From: a virus
Length of the DNA stretch: 23,500 bases
Virus record (IMG/VR): IMGVR_UViG_3300048790_000019
Location: 1-23,500 of that record
Reading direction: 5' to 3' (one strand)
The position numbers and the translations under genes were made by a program. Numbering within the stretch: position 1 is the stretch's first letter; each line of letters opens with the position of its first letter. This document shows positions 6,611 to 21,429 of the stretch, in pieces. Under the pieces are notes generated by a model. That model had not been told where the DNA came from. It made no database searches and was given only the letters and a program-made list of their open reading frames with translations.

Positions 6611-7662
6611 AGCATATTGTTATTGACAAATGGAGAAATTTCCATCTGTTGGAACGGCACTTGCGGTGCTATTAGATTAATCTGGGGCGTCTTAACGGCG
6701 ACCGGCAAAGTTCCTGAAATTACCGGATTTGGAATAACCTGTTTCTCTACGTCAATTGGAATATTCGTATTAGGCTCTAAAGGTACGCCCGTGCTACTCG
6801 CGCCCGGGAGATTAGGAACAGGTGTCAACGCATTGACCATTGGCCCCGATGCTTCCCCATCCGTAATTCCTGATTGGATCTGATTAGGGAAATTTTGCGT
6901 CACAGGTGATTGCACCGTCAAGGCTTGAGCTGTTGCTTGGGGACTGGTTTGTGTCGCCGATCCCGCTGGATTTGGGTTGCCAACCGTTGATGTTACGGAT
7001 GTACTGACCGTGTTAATTTGTTTAAATGTCACTTGAAATTCGCTATAGAGCGTCGTCTTTTCCGACTGTACAGGACGCACATCTTCAATCATCATGCTGG
7101 TCAATAAACCAAAAGGTGTTTGAATGGTGCATAAGGTGCGTGTACTCCAAAACTTATAAAATATAGAATATGCCTGTTCTTGTTTAGTCAACGTCGGTAG
7201 TAATTGTCCTATCAGAGATGCTACGCTTGTAATATTATTAATGACGGTTTGTGCAATATTATTGGCCTGTGCCAATGCCGCATAAGCTTGTCCGTCCTGT
7301 GCGTTCCAGTTGGGGATAAGTGCTCCAGGTGATAATAGTTGAATAACAGGTGTTAAGAGATTCTCGGCTTCTACTTGAAAAATATCCGTCAATTCACCGA
7401 CATACCCTGTCAAAGTAAACTTGACAGGCTTTAAGGCCACATGGTCTTGAATGGCATAATTAGTCTCTAAGTAACTATCGGTAATATCACTTTGCAAATG
7501 TATTTCTTCGGGGCCAATGCTATCAAATACAAAACCATTGATCCCCGGAGGCGCACTAGAAGGCGAGACAATAAAGGAATTTACGACATTTGATATTAGA
7601 TCAGTTGTCGAGCCAATCGATTGGGCGACGGCACTACTTAGGGAGAAATTAACTTGACTCAT
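6607..7662 (-). CDS. Dit-like tail tube initiator / baseplate hub-ring protein with long Pro/Thr-rich tail
   Basis: A 351-residue protein, start ATG at 7662 in an ATGA overlap with the tape-measure stop. Residues about 40-225 contain the Dit-like core: INGFVFDSIGPEEIHLQSDITDSYLE, then DHVALKPVKFTLTGYVGELTD, then a helical insert, then TPFGLLTSMMIEDVRPVQSEKT...FQVTFKQI. This type replaces gp48/gp53-like tube initiators in small contractile phages. Residues 226-351 are low-complexity and rich in Pro, Thr, Ser, Gln and Val, with no obvious fold; this may be an extended linker in the baseplate. Adjacent to tape measure and plug genes, as expected. Confidence 0.75.
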   Translation of the reverse strand: MSQVNFSLSSAVAQSIGSTTDLISNVVNSFIVSPSSAPPGINGFVFDSIGPEEIHLQSDITDSYLETNYAIQDHVALKPVKFTLTGYVGELTDIFQVEAENLLTPVIQLLSPGALIPNWNAQDGQAYAALAQANNIAQTVINNITSVASLIGQLLPTLTKQEQAYSIFYKFWSTRTLCTIQTPFGLLTSMMIEDVRPVQSEKTTLYSEFQVTFKQINTVSTSVTSTVGNPNPAGSATQTSPQATAQALTVQSPVTQNFPNQIQSGITDGEASGPMVNALTPVPNLPGASSTGVPLEPNTNIPIDVEKQVIPNPVISGTLPVAVKTPQINLIAPQVPFQQMEISPFVNNNML

Positions 7663-8696
7663 ATATTCGATTGTCCGCCCATATTCCGGGCATCACGAAT
7701 AGCATTATAAAGGCCCTTATGGGCCGCGTCTTGTACATCATCAGGATTACCGCCATTGACGTTAAAATTATTATTAACGTTAATATCCCCGCTATTATCC
7801 GTGCTTGTACCGCTAGGATTAAACTGTGGTAATAAAACACCTGCTAGAGCACTAGCGCCTAAGATGCCACCTGTAATACCTAAAGCTGCTAAATTGACAC
7901 CCCCTGTTATTGCTGTCATCGCAAGCGCAATACCCCCTAGAATGACAGCGACACTAGCCAGGGCACTGGCCAATTTAGGTAGTGTCATAAGCCATGATTC
8001 AAACCCGTTGACAATATCTAAAACAATTTGTGATATGGGGCCAAGTACAGGGGTTAAAATTGCACCTATAGAAATAATGATACTTGCAAACGTGCTTGCG
8101 ATATTGGTTAATACTTTCCATAAGGCTGACAATTGGTTCATCTCACGTTCAGAGTTTGCCATGGCCGTCTGGACATCTTCCCAATGACCAATCATCAACA
8201 CTAAATTTTCATTAAGACCTGCTGTCTGCAATAAATACCGGCGCATTGCAGGGTCGCGCACTCCTTCAAGATTTTGTAATATTCGGCGCAATACTTCTTC
8301 CGGTTGATCTTGCATCCCACGCGGGTCAATACCTAACAAAGCGCCCCATGTAGTTGCTTTGCCGGTACCTTGCGTTTGCAATTGCATGATGGATGATTGA
8401 ATGTCCGCAATGGTATTAGGCAATACCCCCGCTGAAATACCAAGAGCTTTGGCAGCATTGTCCCACTTTTGGAATACCGTCGATGATACACCCGTAATAC
8501 CCATCAAGTTTCTAAATGACAAAGATAAATTCTCTGCCTCATCAACAACATTTTTGATGCCGTCAACTAAACCTTTTAATCCTAGAGAGGATATGATACT
8601 ATTTAAATTCAGATCACTTAGATCCTTAATCAAGTCCTTAAGTTTCTTCGTGTCCGACTGAAATAAAATATCAAATACTAATTCGCCGCCCGTCAT
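7659..8696 (-). CDS. Short tail tape measure protein
   Basis: A 345-residue protein after the chaperone frameshift gene. The ATG at 8696 overlaps the stop of the -1 frame extension as ATGA. It has an amphipathic helical N-terminus (residues 14-60), an Ala/Leu-rich helical middle with DPRGMQDQPEEVLRRIL at 124-140, and hydrophobic segments at about 200-235 and 242-290 (Gly/Ala/Ile-rich, membrane-active type). The C-terminus, INVNNNFNVNGGNPDDVQDAAHKGLY, is typical of tape measures. Using the known rule of roughly 0.15 nm per residue, the tail would be only about 50 nm long. The tape measure sets tail length and is ejected into the host envelope during infection. Confidence 0.8.
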   Translation of the reverse strand: MTGGELVFDILFQSDTKKLKDLIKDLSDLNLNSIISSLGLKGLVDGIKNVVDEAENLSLSFRNLMGITGVSSTVFQKWDNAAKALGISAGVLPNTIADIQSSIMQLQTQGTGKATTWGALLGIDPRGMQDQPEEVLRRILQNLEGVRDPAMRRYLLQTAGLNENLVLMIGHWEDVQTAMANSEREMNQLSALWKVLTNIASTFASIIISIGAILTPVLGPISQIVLDIVNGFESWLMTLPKLASALASVAVILGGIALAMTAITGGVNLAALGITGGILGASALAGVLLPQFNPSGTSTDNSGDINVNNNFNVNGGNPDDVQDAAHKGLYNAIRDARNMGGQSNI

Positions 8697-9252
8697 AACG
8701 CACCTTGATTAGCTAATTCGATTTGTTTATTCTCGTATTGCATTTTGAATCGTTCGTAAATGAGTCCCGCGATGACAAGGTCCGTGCGCTCTTGAAGAAC
8801 TTCACTTGGTCGACATCCCCACACATTTGCCAATTTGACACTGATACCTACTGCTGTGTCGACCTTAATTTTGATATTAGGTCTTCGCCCACTTGGCCTT
8901 GTATATCCTTCAACACTAAAGGTAGGCTGCTCGAAAAAGGGCGTAGGTTCAACACCAACACCTCCTTGACTATCAGGAGATAGTCTTCTCGTATCTTCTC
9001 ATCCTGAAATAAAGCATTATTGACAGGACGATTATTATATTTGCAACGGCCAAAACATGGCTGCAATGCTTGTTTAATGCCGGGCGATGATATTGCCCGC
9101 GCAATTACATTCTTCAATAATTCAATGGCATCACTATTACTTTTGACCATTTCTAAATCACGTGCGACCGCTTCGAGCAAAGCCAACCCCACCTCAAACT
9201 CGGCCATGCTTATTTCCAATACTGCCCCAGATGGTAGCGTTTTTGTTTCCAT
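8693..9252 (-). CDS. Tail assembly chaperone, -1 frameshift fusion (gpGT analogue)
   Basis: Predicted fusion of 186 residues: 106 zero-frame residues ending RPF, then 80 residues read in the -1 frame from 8935 to the TGA at 8693-8695. The new part begins FEQPTFSVEGYTRPSG and ends IELANQGAL. It contains LANVWGCRPSEVLQ, DLVIAGLIYERFK and YENK. This 'W-G-x-x-P-x-E-x-L ... D-x-x-x-x-x-x-x-Y-x-R-x-K-x-E' sequence is typical of the T half of G/GT chaperones. The T part has no ATG of its own before this motif, so frameshifting is the natural route. Its stop overlaps the tape-measure ATG, which further supports the frame. Without this, 8697-8847 would be an unexplained gap in an otherwise gap-free operon. 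Confidence 0.85.
8848..9252 (-). CDS. Tail assembly chaperone, zero-frame product (gpG analogue)
   Basis: A 134-residue protein. I chose the ATG at 9252 because GGGAGG lies 8 nt upstream. Upstream in-frame starts exist (ATG at 9297, and further to 9453), but they overlap the tube gene and have no such site. The sequence has a helical N-terminal half (EFEVGLALLEAVARDLEMVK, AIELLKNVIARAISSPGIKQALQPCFGRC) and the segment NNALFQDEKIREDYLLIVKEVLVLNLRPF, typical of tail chaperones encoded between tube and tape-measure genes. Ribosomes that do not slip at 8935-8941 stop at 8848. It is expected to coat the tape measure until tube subunits replace it and is not part of the finished virion. Confidence 0.75.
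   Translation of the reverse strand: METKTLPSGAVLEISMAEFEVGLALLEAVARDLEMVKSNSDAIELLKNVIARAISSPGIKQALQPCFGRCKYNNRPVNNALFQDEKIREDYLLIVKEVLVLNLRPFSSSLPLVLKDIQGQVGEDLISKLRSTQQ
8935..8941 (-). other. Programmed -1 ribosomal frameshift slippery heptamer
   Basis: On the minus strand the sequence reads C CCT TTT in zero-frame phasing, an exact X XXY YYZ heptamer, followed by TCG AGC. After slipping, both tRNAs can re-pair on CCC TTT and the next codon is TTC. It lies in the tail-chaperone gene at the expected point, 28 codons before the zero-frame stop. Confidence 0.85.
8959..8967 (-). promoter_or_regulatory. Internal Shine-Dalgarno-like stimulator upstream of slip site
   Basis: Minus strand AAGGAGGTG, a nine-base match to the usual bacterial anti-SD, 17 nt before the heptamer inside the coding region. 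Internal SD elements upstream of slippery sites raise -1 frameshifting in bacteria (dnaX-type), though usually at 10-14 nt. Its use here is inferred. Confidence 0.5.
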
Positions 9253-9274
9253 CCCGTCATCCTCCCACTCAAGC

Positions 9275-9730
9275 TTAATTGATGCTTCGGTTAACATCGG
9301 CGAATTGTAACATCCAGGTGACGATCGCTTGGTTTGTTTCACCAGCTGCGTTTTCCATGGCCGATGGTTGTTTAGAGAATACCCCGCCAATACCTTGATA
9401 TATAACTTGATTGATGGCGCCGGTACCATCACCAACATTTTTGTCAAACTCAAAATTCATCAAAGGAAAGGCTGCGGGGTTAGAATTATAAGTAGATAAT
9501 AGCCCTTGGATGAATTGATCATCAGCAGACCCCAAAATCAATCTAATTTCAATCTTGATATTCTTACCCTTATAATTGTAACCGTAAATGGTATTGCCCT
9601 GTTTCCCGGTTGACATCGTGGATAAATCTTCAGGGATATCTAATTTAACGACATCGCCATCTCCCCAATTATTGAGTATCCTCCCATTGAGAGAGAAAAC
9701 GTCTTTTCCAACAGAGGCCGCTATAGGCAT
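9275..9730 (-). CDS. Tail tube protein (DUF3277-like)
   Basis: A 151-residue protein with AAGGAG ahead of the ATG at 9730. It sits directly between sheath and chaperone genes, the standard tube position. Features are the N-terminal segment SVGKDVFSLNGRILNNWGDGDVVKLDIPEDLSTMSTGKQGNTIYGYNYKGKNIKIEIRLILGSADDQFIQGLL and a beta-rich rest with AFPLMNFEFDKNV. The 'G-D-x-x ... S-x-x-x-G-x-x-G ... G-x-x-x-x-I-x-x-R-L-x-x-G-S-x-D-D' pattern is that of tube proteins of KPP10-like and related myoviruses. It would polymerise as hexameric rings inside the sheath. Confidence 0.8.
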   Translation of the reverse strand: MPIAASVGKDVFSLNGRILNNWGDGDVVKLDIPEDLSTMSTGKQGNTIYGYNYKGKNIKIEIRLILGSADDQFIQGLLSTYNSNPAAFPLMNFEFDKNVGDGTGAINQVIYQGIGGVFSKQPSAMENAAGETNQAIVTWMLQFADVNRSIN

Positions 9731-9740
9731 ATGAATCTCC

Positions 9741-11129
9741 TTATTGATTAATTGTAACTAAAATACTGCCGCTTTGAATTGCCCCTGCTTCTTTGCCTGC
9801 AATTTGGACTAAAGGAGCTTGACGCGCGGCGCGGGCCGTTGTCGATTGCTGACTGACAGGTGCTGAATATATGTAAAATCCGGTGCCTGTAATATTAGCC
9901 AAGAACTTGGTTGGATTGCCAAAAGTGTCAGCACTAGTCCAAGAGCCCGGTGCTAAATAACCATTTGATACAGCTTGTTTGAGTACCGCTCGGTAATACG
10001 ATTTAAGCAATGACATGCCCGCTTCCGTTTGAGCAATCTTTGTACCTACCGTTGCCAAAGCATTGAAACCGGCAACCTGCAAAGATGTGACAAGCCATAC
10101 CAAGTTGGTTACTTCATCGGTATATTTATTGGCGCCGACACTAACAACACCCGGATATGATCCACCATAATTAGCGTAGCAATCAGCACCACAGGCGGCC
10201 AATCCGGCTAAGATAACACTTGTCAAGGTTGTATCTGGTACAACATTGACAAGTTGTTGCAAGTTCATCGTCTGGGTGGTATTGGAACCTGACCAATTAG
10301 TGGATAACGCCTTGGATGCATAGGCAGCGGCATATAGCCGAGCATTTAAGCCAGTGCTGCCGTAATACAACATGCGGGTATTAATATCACTAGCTAATTG
10401 GATGGTAATAAATGTTCCGTAAATATCCAGAGTGTTAATAGTAGGTAAGAACAAAATCTGATTTTGATTAGCTTGCACGGCGGCAGCAAGTGCTACCCAT
10501 GTACTATTCGCTCCGTAGTTGGTCGCAATAATGCCATTAAAATATAAATAATTATTTCCACGGTTGTATGCATTTAATAATGTTTCGGTGCCAACAGATG
10601 TAATGGCCACAGTACAACCTGTCCCATAACCCCCTGTAACAGCAATCCCTGTGCCCGTGGTATAAAGTATACCCGGTGTCGCTAAACTTAAACTTGTGAC
10701 AATACCACCAGCAGTAGCTGTGACAGTGGCAAATCCGCCATATCCACCGGTTTGATTGATAGATAAAACATCCCCCACCTTATAATTGGTGCCACCTGCA
10801 GTCGGTGTGGCATTAAGACCTGTGATAGCACCTGTCTGAATTGGAATAATGATAAGCTGGCCGCCACCATTCAATATGCTAGGCTGCTGAGCAAACACGT
10901 TAACCGCTTGTTGGTATGTTTCAGAACTAAACCCAAAATCAGTACCAACGGCAGCCGCTGTGACATAAGGACGCCAGAAGTCGGTATTAGGATTGCTTAA
11001 AAAAGCATCTGTCGTAAATAAGCCAATATTATTGACGTTATATCCGGGGATACCAGACGACGCAAATTGGACAGAAACATTGATCACACTACTGATAGGT
11101 ATGACGCCTGGGGTATTATTACCGGCCAT
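9741..11129 (-). CDS. Contractile tail sheath protein (DUF3383-like) with inserted beta domain
   Basis: A 462-residue protein with AAGGAG before the ATG at 11129. It shows the DUF3383 sheath layout: an N-terminal part with VINVSVQFASSGIPGYNVNNIGLFTTD and TYQQAVNVFAQQPSILNGGGQLIIIPIQ, and a core with TETLLNAYNRGNNYLYFNGIIATN. TRMLYYGSTGLNARLYAAAYAS, an Ala/Gly-rich region and a C-terminal strand set (APLVQIAGKEAGAIQSGSILVTINQ) complete it. Residues about 103-183 are a Gly/Thr-rich insertion with TPTAGGTNYKVGDVLSINQTGG and a second half around SLATPGILYTTGTGIAV. This small beta module, often repeated in phage surface proteins, is not part of the basic sheath fold. Sheath contraction drives the tube through the envelope. 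Confidence 0.85.
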   Translation of the reverse strand: MAGNNTPGVIPISSVINVSVQFASSGIPGYNVNNIGLFTTDAFLSNPNTDFWRPYVTAAAVGTDFGFSSETYQQAVNVFAQQPSILNGGGQLIIIPIQTGAITGLNATPTAGGTNYKVGDVLSINQTGGYGGFATVTATAGGIVTSLSLATPGILYTTGTGIAVTGGYGTGCTVAITSVGTETLLNAYNRGNNYLYFNGIIATNYGANSTWVALAAAVQANQNQILFLPTINTLDIYGTFITIQLASDINTRMLYYGSTGLNARLYAAAYASKALSTNWSGSNTTQTMNLQQLVNVVPDTTLTSVILAGLAACGADCYANYGGSYPGVVSVGANKYTDEVTNLVWLVTSLQVAGFNALATVGTKIAQTEAGMSLLKSYYRAVLKQAVSNGYLAPGSWTSADTFGNPTKFLANITGTGFYIYSAPVSQQSTTARAARQAPLVQIAGKEAGAIQSGSILVTINQ

Positions 11130-16458: not shown

Positions 16459-17265
16459 TTACATACTCATCAATTTGTTGATATCTTTAGTTCCGTCGAC
16501 ACCAAAAGCATCAACCAATTTATCTATAAACGGGTTCTTATTGTAGGGATCAGATTTAAGTATTCCGTTCGCCAACATCATACGAGCATCGGCATTCATC
16601 AAATGAACACGGTTCATAGGTGTTACTTCCCTGTGTGCCATTTTTACATCCATATGAACGTATTGCTCAATTTTATTATCTTGGCAAATTTTGGCAAAAT
16701 AAGTGTCGTCGGGACATTCTTCTATTTCAGGGAACAGGGGACGAGGGACTAATTTAAATGGTTCTACCTTAATTAAGGTCATACCAAAACCAATCAAATC
16801 AACTTTTTGGATACCCTCACCCTTGACCTCTGTCAAAAAATTTTCTTTTTCTCGGTAAGCTTCAACTAAATCTTTGGTATTGTCAACGCGATTAAGCGCG
16901 GCGTATACATAAGGAAAATACCTTGTGGGATATAATGCGCCAATGACATCCTTTTGAGCTTCGTATAATTTGCTAAAATGCTGATGACCTATCCCCCACA
17001 CGTCATCGTCCATACGCAAGATGTAATCGAAATCATGAGAAAATGCTACGTTAAATATTTTGTTCATCGCGGGGTACCAATGGTCCCTATGGATAAATAA
17101 AGGGGCATGGGTTAAACCATTGCTGCGTATATCATTGATGACATTTAAGAATGATTTAAGCCATCTGTTTGGATCTGAATCTATTCCCATCGTCGGAACA
17201 GCTACTAAAATTTTCTTAGGGTTTTCTACTTCGATAGATACTTTTTGGTTATCTAAGGATTCCAT
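16459..17265 (-). CDS. Glycosyltransferase-like protein (GT-A type) in the head module
   Basis: A 268-residue protein. The N-terminal strand ILVAVPTMG (19-27) begins a nucleotide-sugar-binding fold, followed by RWLKSFLNVINDIRSNG. The metal-binding motif is at 85-89 (MDDDV), in FDYILRMDDDVW. After it come VIGALYPTRYFPYVYAALNR, VDLIGFGMTLIKVEPF, DDTYFAKICQD and VHMDVKMAHREV, the layout of GT-A glycosyltransferases with a late His ligand. The start overlaps the minor head gene by 17 nt. A phage enzyme within the head operon could glycosylate virion proteins, modified DNA or host surface sugars; the target is not determinable. It is distinct in sequence from the tandem pair at 19937-21429. Confidence 0.65.
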   Translation of the reverse strand: MESLDNQKVSIEVENPKKILVAVPTMGIDSDPNRWLKSFLNVINDIRSNGLTHAPLFIHRDHWYPAMNKIFNVAFSHDFDYILRMDDDVWGIGHQHFSKLYEAQKDVIGALYPTRYFPYVYAALNRVDNTKDLVEAYREKENFLTEVKGEGIQKVDLIGFGMTLIKVEPFKLVPRPLFPEIEECPDDTYFAKICQDNKIEQYVHMDVKMAHREVTPMNRVHLMNADARMMLANGILKSDPYNKNPFIDKLVDAFGVDGTKDINKLMSM

Positions 17266-18453: not shown

Positions 18454-19944
18454 TTATCCCTCTTTGGCTTTTTCTTTCTTGGCCTTAGCACCATCTTGAC
18501 CGAATGATGCTTGACCTTCCTCTTCCATCATGGCACTTATAGGCGGCTCCGGCTCGGCACCTTTGGATACTTCCGTCTCCATTTCAAGCAGACCTTCGGA
18601 TTTTAAAAGCTGGCAATATTCTTTTGGGTTGACAATTCCTTGCGTATACAAAGCGCTTGCCCTGGCAAATTTAGATGTCTTAACCTCTTCCTCTTCGGTT
18701 GCTTTAAGTACACGTAAAGGGGCCCATTCCATTGACCAATTGTCAGGAATAAAACCCCATACTTTCATCATCACAATTGGAATTATCTTTTCTAAAATTT
18801 CTTCGGCTTTGTCCCGCTGATCTTCGACGATGGCGTTGTAGACTTCAAGATCGTCTTCACCACTGCTAAAACCACTTGATGCTAACCCAAATATTTTAGA
18901 CATTGGCATTCTAATTGCCGATGCCATTCCAATTCTGATTTGCTCAAGGATCTCGGGAAGTCCGGCGAAACTAACTTGTTTTTGCTCATAGTCATCCTCT
19001 TTATCCAGGACAACCGCATTTAAGAAATTCTTCATCGTTTGAGCAATCTGGATCCGACTTACCGTCTGATTGCGCGCAATAGAATTTAGGATATTTGAAT
19101 TAAATTTATTTATCTTCCAAACATCTACTTTAGCCTCGTCTAATAATTCAAATACAACGTTATTCTCTTTGAAATAATTATTCATCTCCCGGATAACGCA
19201 TTCAATGACCGACATATTCCAACCCTGCAAACGCATGCGTACAAGGCTTGGCGCTTCGTCACCCATTATCTTGCAGACACGGCTTTGATTTATTTTGCTG
19301 ATATTAAAACGATAGCTTTCGTCCTCAAGCATTGCATCAGTAACGCCGCTGGGTGTGCTGTAACCGAATCCTGGGTAATAAGCAAACGTCGCATCTGGGC
19401 TGTGGGGCGTACCCTGCCACATTAATTCCCAACGGTCGGCCGTGATAAACTGCAATTTACTTTTTTCGTTAATTAAATCTATATTGAATGGCTTGGTAAA
19501 ATCTTGTTCACAATTAATAATTATACCGGCGCCACCAAATAATCTATCCCACCGCATAGCGGTCTTGACCTTCTTTAAAATAAAAAGGCGTTTAATTTCT
19601 TTATGCAATGCTTCAATTTCTTCCGGGTCAACTTTGTCCGTCTTAATCTTAATTCCACCACGAAAAGCATCATAGACCGGCTGGTCAACCAACGTGCGCA
19701 GCGGTCCAAATAAAACATACGCATATGATAAAAGAACGCGCTGTAAAGAAATAAGGGTATAAGATGTGTTTGTGAAAAATTCGTATTGGGTGGATAATGC
19801 GGCAGTATTCTGTCCGCCAAAACTTGCGTCGAATACACCACTCATAGGATAATTTCCTGGGCCAATGCCTTGACCTAACCCTAAGTTTGGTCCAAGCGCA
19901 TTTTCAAGATCATCACCGACAGACACAGTTTTCTTTTTAGGCAT
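18454..19944 (-). CDS. Portal protein (DUF1073 type)
   Basis: A 496-residue protein, overlapping the preceding gene by 8 nt, with AAGGA upstream of the ATG at 19944. The DUF1073 portal signature is visible: LISLQRVLLSYAYVLFGPLRTLVDQPVYDAFRGGIKIK, KTAMRWDRLFGGAGIIIN, ELMWQGTPHSPDATFAYYPGFGYSTP, EQIRIGMASAIRMPMSKIFGLASSGFSSGEDDLEVYNAIVEDQRDK, and a helical C-terminus with WGFIPDNWSMEWAPLRV. The dodecameric portal forms the DNA entry channel and docks terminase. The last 30 residues are charged and Glu/Lys-rich. Family DUF1073 is also called Phage_portal_3. Confidence 0.9.
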   Translation of the reverse strand: MPKKKTVSVGDDLENALGPNLGLGQGIGPGNYPMSGVFDASFGGQNTAALSTQYEFFTNTSYTLISLQRVLLSYAYVLFGPLRTLVDQPVYDAFRGGIKIKTDKVDPEEIEALHKEIKRLFILKKVKTAMRWDRLFGGAGIIINCEQDFTKPFNIDLINEKSKLQFITADRWELMWQGTPHSPDATFAYYPGFGYSTPSGVTDAMLEDESYRFNISKINQSRVCKIMGDEAPSLVRMRLQGWNMSVIECVIREMNNYFKENNVVFELLDEAKVDVWKINKFNSNILNSIARNQTVSRIQIAQTMKNFLNAVVLDKEDDYEQKQVSFAGLPEILEQIRIGMASAIRMPMSKIFGLASSGFSSGEDDLEVYNAIVEDQRDKAEEILEKIIPIVMMKVWGFIPDNWSMEWAPLRVLKATEEEEVKTSKFARASALYTQGIVNPKEYCQLLKSEGLLEMETEVSKGAEPEPPISAMMEEEGQASFGQDGAKAKKEKAKEG

Positions 19945-20659
19945 TTAAACATTCCTTGTGGCCTGCTCTGATGGCAGCTATTAACGTATTAATCTGATCA
20001 GGCGTCGGATTAATATTACATGCCACCTGGTTCATGGCAATGCGCTTATAAATTTCATCGGGTTGACGTAGACCATTATGAATAGATATATGCTTGATTA
20101 CAATGGGAAGATGAATTATTTTACCAACGTTCCTGTATAGCTGTTCTAAAAAAATATCCGCCCCCCATGTTGGTATGGTAGGTGGAAAGAAATAACCTAA
20201 AGCATTGATACCGTCCCTTCCTTGCAATGGAAAACAACAGTAATTACCCAAATGATTCAAACGATGCGGTCCCAACATGTCTTCAATCCACCCATAAATA
20301 ATATTAGGGGCGTTGCCTATTTTATTCTCCAATATCTGTTTGCTATAAACATCCCAATGCTTTGTTATGAATTCAGCGTCATCATTACAGGCAATGACCC
20401 ACCGCCCTGTTGACTTAGAACATAGGAAATTATAATAATCTTTTGAGAAGTTTAAAGAACGCTTGACTTTATAGAATTTAGCAAACGGGAATTGGTTGCG
20501 ATCAATAACCGCATTTTGACGCACATCATCTTCATCCACCGCAATCAATACTTCAATGGCGCCTATATTAGCGGTGTTGTTACGGATGGAAGTTAACAAA
20601 TTAAATAAAAGGCCGGGGCGGTCGCGGGTGGGTAATATGATAGAGAAGTCACGACTCAT
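19937..20659 (-). CDS. Glycosyltransferase family 2-like protein
   Basis: A 240-residue protein. I chose the ATG at 20659 (MSRDFSIILPTRDRP) because it overlaps the preceding stop as ATGA and has GGAGAG 7 nt upstream. FSIILPTRDRPGLLFNLLTSIRNNT is the classical GT2 opening. IEVLIAVDEDD and GRWVIACNDDAEF (NDD at 92-94) mark the nucleotide-sugar and metal-binding region. Later GNYCCFPLQGRDGINALGYFFPPTIPTWGADIFLE and HLPIVIKHISIHNG include a His suited as the late ligand. It lies between the terminase and portal genes and shares layout with the gene just upstream. Donor and acceptor are unknown. Confidence 0.75.
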   Translation of the reverse strand: MSRDFSIILPTRDRPGLLFNLLTSIRNNTANIGAIEVLIAVDEDDVRQNAVIDRNQFPFAKFYKVKRSLNFSKDYYNFLCSKSTGRWVIACNDDAEFITKHWDVYSKQILENKIGNAPNIIYGWIEDMLGPHRLNHLGNYCCFPLQGRDGINALGYFFPPTIPTWGADIFLEQLYRNVGKIIHLPIVIKHISIHNGLRQPDEIYKRIAMNQVACNINPTPDQINTLIAAIRAGHKECLNA

Positions 20660-21429
20660 GATAATCTCTCCACTATGTTCTTGCATTGTGATTCAATTAT
20701 CTCTTTAAATAATTCTGTCTTCATATACTCAAAATTTTCTTTCCTGTCAGTATTCCACCGTGGATGATCTTCTTGATCCATGCTCCCTGTTTTACGGTTG
20801 ACAAATATACCGTCAGTAAAACGGGTTATATTAATATCATATTTAAACCATAAGACACGCTCAATGCATAAAGTCCATGCGTCGGTAAATGATATAGGGA
20901 ATGTTTCAACATCATTGATTAATTTAGTAGACCAGGCAGGCGCTTCATCTATAATATGCAAATCCTCGGCGTGGAATGGATTGAATGAAACATCGAATGG
21001 ATTGATATTATAATCAGGCCGGCTTATTGGAGGATGCGGCCTTTGGTGAATGATGAAATAATCCCCGGCGGTTTGAGCTTGATTGCACAATGCAAAATCC
21101 CAGCCATGATTTACTGTAAAATCATCGGCCATCGCTATGACTATTTTGGAAGAAGGGGACAATAAAGGAATTAATAAATTATAACCGTAGTGGATATCAA
21201 TATACCCTCGTAATTTCTCCTCATAAATCTGTTTTATTTTAAAGGGATATTTATTATCTGGTAATAATGAATCATGCACAAATCTTGCTTCTTGATCGCA
21301 AAAATCATATTTAACCAATACCTCAATCAGGCTAGGATAAAGTGTATTGACCCGTAATGATTCTAGTAAAGCGATTAAATTATGGTTTTTATTCCCCTCC
21401 ACCCTGCTTGAAATAATTATAGATATCAT
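20656..21429 (-). CDS. Glycosyltransferase-like protein, divergent paralogue of the next gene
   Basis: A 257-residue protein with AAGGA before the ATG at 21429. The opening MISIIISSRVEG, then LIALLESLRVNTLYPSLIEVLVKYDF and KIVIAMADDFTVNHGWDFAL (ADD at 101-103) align with LLFNLLTSIRNNT...IEVLIAVDEDD and WVIACNDDAEFITKHWD of the neighbour. This points to tandem duplication or paralogous origin. The rest (DYFIIHQRPHPP, PISFTDAWTLCIERVLWFKYDIN) is unlike the neighbour and may define a different acceptor. The fold is GT-A-like, but the catalytic DXD is only ADD here, so it may be inactive or weak. Confidence 0.6.
   Translation of the reverse strand: MISIIISSRVEGNKNHNLIALLESLRVNTLYPSLIEVLVKYDFCDQEARFVHDSLLPDNKYPFKIKQIYEEKLRGYIDIHYGYNLLIPLLSPSSKIVIAMADDFTVNHGWDFALCNQAQTAGDYFIIHQRPHPPISRPDYNINPFDVSFNPFHAEDLHIIDEAPAWSTKLINDVETFPISFTDAWTLCIERVLWFKYDINITRFTDGIFVNRKTGSMDQEDHPRWNTDRKENFEYMKTELFKEIIESQCKNIVERLS

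Follow-up and report, generated by a model that had tools for sequence, protein, structure and literature searches.

The structural genes of the phage represented by an IMG/VR virus record lie on the minus strand of a 23,500-base stretch, all of which was analyzed here and is called the window. Between its tail tube and tape measure genes, a short ORF is followed by what looks like a gap. An earlier note, made from the sequence alone, had proposed that the gap hides the second half of a tail assembly chaperone gene, reached by a programmed −1 frameshift. Is the gap empty, does it hold a small gene of its own, or does the locus produce both a short G protein and a longer GT fusion, as phage lambda does? 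A conserved site, a conserved direction of the frame change, a coding −1 frame and predicted protein folds all support the last answer. On this sequence evidence, the locus is almost certainly a tail chaperone gene with a −1 frameshift that yields G and GT isoforms of the lambda G/GT type.

A chaperone gene in two frames

The window carries genes for terminase, portal, capsid, a DUF3383 sheath, a KPP10_Orf10-type tube and a baseplate hub. This gene set is that of a contractile-tailed phage. ORFs together with Pfam and PHROG matches give the gene order sheath, tube, G, T and tape measure (Table 1). The site thus has matched genes on both sides and lies, as the earlier note had it, between tube and tape measure, which is the location of a lambda G/GT-type chaperone. 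The tape measure is short (345 aa) and would predict a short contractile tail. Elsewhere, amid the terminase, portal and head genes, three minus-strand ORFs of ∼250–270 aa (16459–17265, 19937–20686 and 20656–21429) look glycosyltransferase-like by eye, and match no Pfam family at E≤0.001. Neither Rfam families nor tRNAs were found in the 23,500-base window.

Table 1. Positions in the window of the chaperone locus, its putative control elements and the neighboring tail genes.
Feature	Position	Strand	Basis or remark
Tail sheath (DUF3383)	9741–11129	−	Pfam DUF3383, E 7.5e-31; PHROG tail sheath, E 1.1e-53
Tail tube protein	9275–9730	−	Pfam KPP10_Orf10, E 1.3e-5; phrog_280
Probable G ribosome binding site, GGGAGG	9261–9266	−	Sequence; 8 nt before ATG at 9252
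G, tail assembly chaperone, 134 aa	8848–9252	−	ORF; Pfam; AF2; Foldseek
Proposed 5' stimulator, AAGGAGGTG	8959–8967	−	Nine bases complementary to 16S 3' end
Slippery heptamer, C CCT TTT	8935–8941	−	Sequence; same zero-frame site in relatives
T, C-terminal domain of predicted GT fusion	8693–8941	−	Open frame without start; conservation; third-position bias; AF2
Possible hairpin 5' arm, GCCTAC	8922–8927	−	7 nt past heptamer; homologous to stem in relatives
Possible hairpin 3' arm, GTAGGT, containing zero-frame stop	8846–8851	−	Pairs with 8927–8922 in minimum-energy fold
Alternative local 3' arm for GCCTAC, GTGGGC	8887–8892	−	Local fold z=−0.06
Tape measure protein	7659–8696	−	PHROG tail length tape measure, best E 1.4e-8

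The zero frame of G runs from the ATG at 9252 to a TAG at 8850–8848. The window protein matches Pfam family Phage_TAC_15 with an E value of 0.012 and 16.5 bits, which is under the 22-bit cut-off, and 29 of 43 aligned G relatives match the same family at E≤0.01. An AF2 model of the window G has a pLDDT of 91, and in Foldseek searches it matches tail-assembly chaperones of viruses and phages, including that of Citrobacter phage Moogle; no significant match was obtained against the PDB. Profile matches and the predicted structure together place G in a chaperone family.

Overlapping the end of G, an open −1 frame of ∼100 codons in all extends from 8998 to a TGA at 8695–8693. An open −1 frame of this length arises in 0.11% of base shuffles. 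The TGA overlaps the tape measure ATG (8696–8694) to form ATGA, and the coordinates of this overlap and of the zero-frame stop at 8848 agree with those first given. The heptamer and the open frame beyond it are likewise as described, whereas the count of 80 codons from the heptamer is corrected to 82 plus the stop. Beyond the zero-frame stop, differences between loci fall at positions 3, 1 and 2 of the −1-frame codons in 1133, 368 and 240 cases, respectively, as counted over 75 locus pairs of 75–97% identity that are not independent of one another.

Conserved in the 45 aligned T sequences are PFxExP, which lies at the slip point, a motif of the KAGYG type and ALxYExF; the window has NVWGC in place of the second and GLIYERF in place of the third. 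The peptides NVWGCRPSEVL and LIYERFK, which had been called typical of G/GT chaperones, thus occupy conserved positions of the T domain of this family, although no Pfam match backs the description. In profile searches 36 of the 45 T sequences match the function-unknown family phrog_16793, whereas the T of the window itself falls short of phrog_16793 and matches neither a Pfam family nor any other known family. Its AF2 model (pLDDT 91) has two strands and three helices, and Foldseek returns only weak matches to small uncharacterized phage proteins. Taken together, these comparisons indicate that T is a −1-frame product conserved as a protein.

T could instead be a separate small gene, translated by re-initiation or from an internal start, as depositors have annotated it in several isolates (gp57/gp58 of phi1422, gp34/gp35 of BP63 and ORF13/ORF14 of KPP10), and TTG or GTG codons do occur near the site in the −1 frame of some loci. 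However, the −1 frame of the window contains no ATG, GTG or TTG from its opening at 8998 to 90 nt beyond the heptamer, and therefore has no start codon able to express the whole T domain alone, the kind of start that the earlier note had named as evidence against frameshifting. Of 58 loci, 22 lack these codons over the same stretch, and one of them is L008, the locus with the sequence of the window itself. Moreover, the conserved part of T begins at the slippery site with PFxExP, upstream of the annotated small ORFs. We consider a separate T gene very improbable.

The slippery site and the direction of the shift

The heptamer C CCT TTT (8941–8935) stands in the zero-frame register of an XXXYYYZ site. 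About one such heptamer is expected by chance in every G gene (codon-shuffle mean 1.0), so its presence alone proves nothing and conservation is needed. Single-sequence T and tube queries of IMG/VR returned only near-identical contigs, and loci were therefore gathered with sheath profiles from IMG/VR and prokaryote genomes. These were scanned, with either direction allowed, for an ORF of G size that has another open frame overlapping its end. A −1 partner was found in 278 of the 280 loci with enough sequence (34 of them also with some +1 or second candidate) and a +1 partner only in the other 2, while 12 further loci gave no pair. The automatic scan reported only a +1 partner for L213 and L266 and none for L203, L216, L263, L302 and L305.

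Site variants were compared in 147 non-redundant loci, which are at most 75% identical to one another around the slip site. CCCTTTT occurs in 76, CCCTTTC in 19, CCCTTTA in 2, another base followed by CCTTTT in 27, TTTTTTN in 17 and other sequences in 6. CCCTTT is thus kept in 97 of the 147, and NCCTTT occupies the same zero-frame place in 124. The 27 loci with GCCTTTT, ACCTTTT or TCCTTTT (L021, L024, L030, L032, L040 and others) have imperfect XXXYYYZ sites, which break the XXX rule for the P site and keep T TTT for the A-site tRNA. Three loci (L039, L115 and L121) read CCC TTT AAA AAA AAG at the homologous site, where the proline codon is changed; a dnaX-type A AAA AAG apparently took over there as the slippery site. 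The zero-frame protein context is fixed as approximately DYxxxCxEVxKENLxPF. In many loci a −1-frame stop directly precedes the heptamer, such that the frame opens at −6, and the shift must accordingly occur at or after the heptamer and not earlier. Heptamer, direction, downstream frame and T motifs are retained in relatives, as the earlier proposal would have it.

These data also bear on two other accounts of the frame change. RNA polymerase slippage on the T run could join the frames during transcription, and some relatives do have runs of six to eight Ts. Runs of three to five, however, are generally understood to be too short for this process, and the window has five while many relatives have three (CCCTTTC). 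The heptamer also keeps a fixed codon register, for which polymerase slippage has no need. Transcriptional slippage is thus even less probable than a separate T gene. Breakage of a formerly continuous gene by an indel or an assembly error, for which nothing speaks beyond the frame change itself, is refuted by the conservation of that change in 278 of 280 loci, isolates and divergent relatives included, and its probability is negligible.

Under programmed frameshifting, the reading that we prefer, most ribosomes would translate G from 9252 to 8848 and stop at the TAG at 8850. We infer that a minority slip back by one base at C CCT TTT, so that tRNA-Pro exchanges CCT for CCC and tRNA-Phe pairs with TTT as before, and read on in the −1 frame to the TGA. 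The expected products are G as the major isoform and a GT fusion of ∼185 aa as the minor one. By analogy with lambda, G would coat the tape measure, and the T domain would recruit tail tube subunits in contractile-tail assembly. Slippage might be stimulated by an anti-SD sequence 5' of the heptamer and, in many relatives, by a hairpin ∼7 nt past it on the 3' side.

Putative stimulators flanking the site

The nine-base anti-SD match that had been placed 17 nt upstream is confirmed: AAGGAGGTG (8967–8959) ends exactly 17 nt before the heptamer, and the spacing after AAGGAGGT is 18 nt. Complementarity to the 16S 3' end, ACCUCCUUA, was calculated as ViennaRNA duplex energy and compared with within-gene synonymous-codon shuffles in 58 and then 122 loci. 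It exceeds the shuffles in two peaks, one for 9-nt windows starting at −29 to −20 (z∼−9) and one for those starting at −19 to −12 (z∼−6.5). Among loci that are at most 60% identical, the values are ∼−6.6 for the distant peak and ∼−5.8 for the near peak. Across the 122 loci, 42 have only the distant element, 36 only the near one, 6 both and 38 neither, compared with ∼22, 20, 4 and 76 expected from shuffles. Classified by spacing, an element lies ∼18 nt upstream in 46 of 122 loci and ∼8–10 nt upstream in 38. Pairing is stronger at the distant element, with a median of −10.0 kcal/mol versus −6.2 kcal/mol at the near one. These sequence comparisons indicate that the anti-SD match in relatives is real and under selection beyond what the protein requires. 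Shared ancestry may account for part of the signal, which persists among highly diverged loci. By selection and position, we infer that the upstream element is a putative stimulator.

Anti-SD sequences stimulate −1 frameshifting from 9–14 nt upstream of the shift site (PMC5009743), or from 10–14 nt according to PMC3673220, which cites Larsen 1994. The near element fits the published range, and the distant one, to which that of the window belongs, falls outside it. One proposal is that the chaperone frameshift of DUF3383-sheath phages is set by an anti-SD element at either ∼18 nt (stronger) or ∼8–10 nt (weaker), and that the distant one acts beyond 9–14 nt through a long-lived mRNA–16S hybrid or by slowing the ribosome before the site. 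The chances of this proposal are about even.

A competing explanation, which concerns only this element, is that AAGGAGGTG is no stimulator and just codes for the conserved residues Lys-Glu-Val, or else acts as an internal start. Glu-Val is indeed a conserved pair in G, the spacing of 17–18 nt exceeds the 9–14 nt given for −1 stimulation (PMC5009743), and the window has a zero-frame TTG at 8952, 8 nt past GGAGG. The codon choice, however, speaks against it. The Glu codon at −7 (8965–8963 in the window) is GAG in 49 loci and GAA in 13, as compared with GAG/GAA counts of 361/751 elsewhere, 33/69 in other Glu-Val pairs and 97/222 at nearby Glu codons; where Glu stands at codon −4, it is GAG in 11 of 11. 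Relatives share no conserved start codon at initiation distance, and loci without the distant element tend to have a similar one at ∼8–10 nt. A role unrelated to stimulation is, in our judgment, rather unlikely.

Evidence for a downstream element comes mainly from relatives. Over 60 loci, folding of the stretch from +11 to +80 surpasses that of dinucleotide shuffles (mean z=−1.71, with 45% below −2), unlike the stretch from +80 to +150 with its mean z of −0.44. The 5' arm of the hairpin mostly begins between +11 and +17. In one group of relatives, the zero-frame stop lies inside the 3' arm, and 75.9% of cells are paired in the 12-bp stem, versus 28–50% when the arms are slid. This stem shows eight double changes against 3.6 expected, to which peptides conserved in two frames may contribute. 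RNAalifold predicted no consensus structure for the group. In the window, GCCTAC and GTAGGT pair in the minimum-energy fold of 8932–8845, which is only moderately better than shuffles (z=−1.55). A local hairpin of GCCTAC with GTGGGC was rejected, being no better than shuffles.

Among the 46 loci with the distant anti-SD element, 16 have T runs of at least six, versus 45 of the 76 without it (p=0.015). There is thus a weak indication that the strengths of anti-SD, T run and hairpin compensate for each other, a pattern that may reflect shared ancestry.

Relation to known frameshift systems

Lambda G/GT (Xu, Hendrix and Duda 2004; reviewed in PMC5009743) shares the position between tube and tape measure and the −1 direction, and likewise makes a short G and a minor GT fusion, an arrangement conserved despite low sequence similarity. 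The window differs in its CCCTTTT site, its contractile tail and its flanking anti-SD, and many relatives differ also in their hairpin. In systems of the lambda type, GT amounts to a few percent of G, neither protein is present in virions, and G binds the tape measure and T the tube. The sequence-level traits of the type that were compared here (gene position, heptamer, coding −1 frame and G family) are all found in the window and its relatives.

Burkholderia phage Magia (NC_070954, PMC7883833) has a DUF3383-type sheath, the same zero-frame CCCTTTT and a joined tape measure chaperone product annotated by its depositors. It is distant, with 33% identity across part of the sheath. Its T belongs to a different sequence type, and its site showed no strong anti-SD element. 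The nearest isolate found is Bdellovibrio phage phi1422, in which gp57/gp58 share the gene order, have the identical heptamer at the identical place, and are preceded by a GAGGTG that ends exactly 17 nt before it, but are annotated as two separate hypothetical proteins with no frameshift noted. KPP10, whose tube family is matched in the window, also has the same gene order. In Vandenendeviridae and Andersonviridae, the available portion of PMC12846349 describes a myovirus chaperone with a conserved −1 frame like that of the window; it gives the site as GTTTTT and makes no mention of a 5' anti-SD. Literature searches returned nothing relevant on CCCTTTT sites in phages, or on frameshifting in connection with DUF3383 or with Rosemountvirus.

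The E. coli dnaX cassette (PMC5009743) has a layout like the one proposed here, with anti-SD, slippery heptamer and downstream stem-loop. It differs in its A AAA AAG site and in its spacing, which is within 9–14 nt, compared with 17–18 nt in the window; the 38 of 122 relatives with the near element have a spacing close to that of dnaX. In one group of relatives, a downstream stem-loop like that of dnaX is well formed and carries compensatory changes; in the window the fold has a z of −1.55. Salmonella phage BP63 (L006, 9026–9636) has a Rosemountvirus chaperone with T TTT TTC and an AAGGAGG ∼22 nt upstream, annotated as two genes. In Iodobacter phage PhiPLPE (L307, 6347–7370), the tail operon is compact except for an insertion of five reverse-strand genes, which separate the T frame from the next forward gene, annotated as tail fiber/lysozyme.

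Since Magia already has a depositor-annotated frameshift product, and PMC12846349 describes related myovirus families, the locus adds a new member to a known class. The less ordinary part, worth specialist attention, is the putative upstream anti-SD with its two alternative positions. The finding corrects the annotation of a group in which the chaperone's T half routinely appears as a gap or as a small gene of its own. It also offers over 100 diverged forms of a single −1 site that differ in slippery sequence, anti-SD position and downstream hairpin, and this natural variation would make the rule for ribosome–mRNA pairing distance directly testable in a standard reporter.
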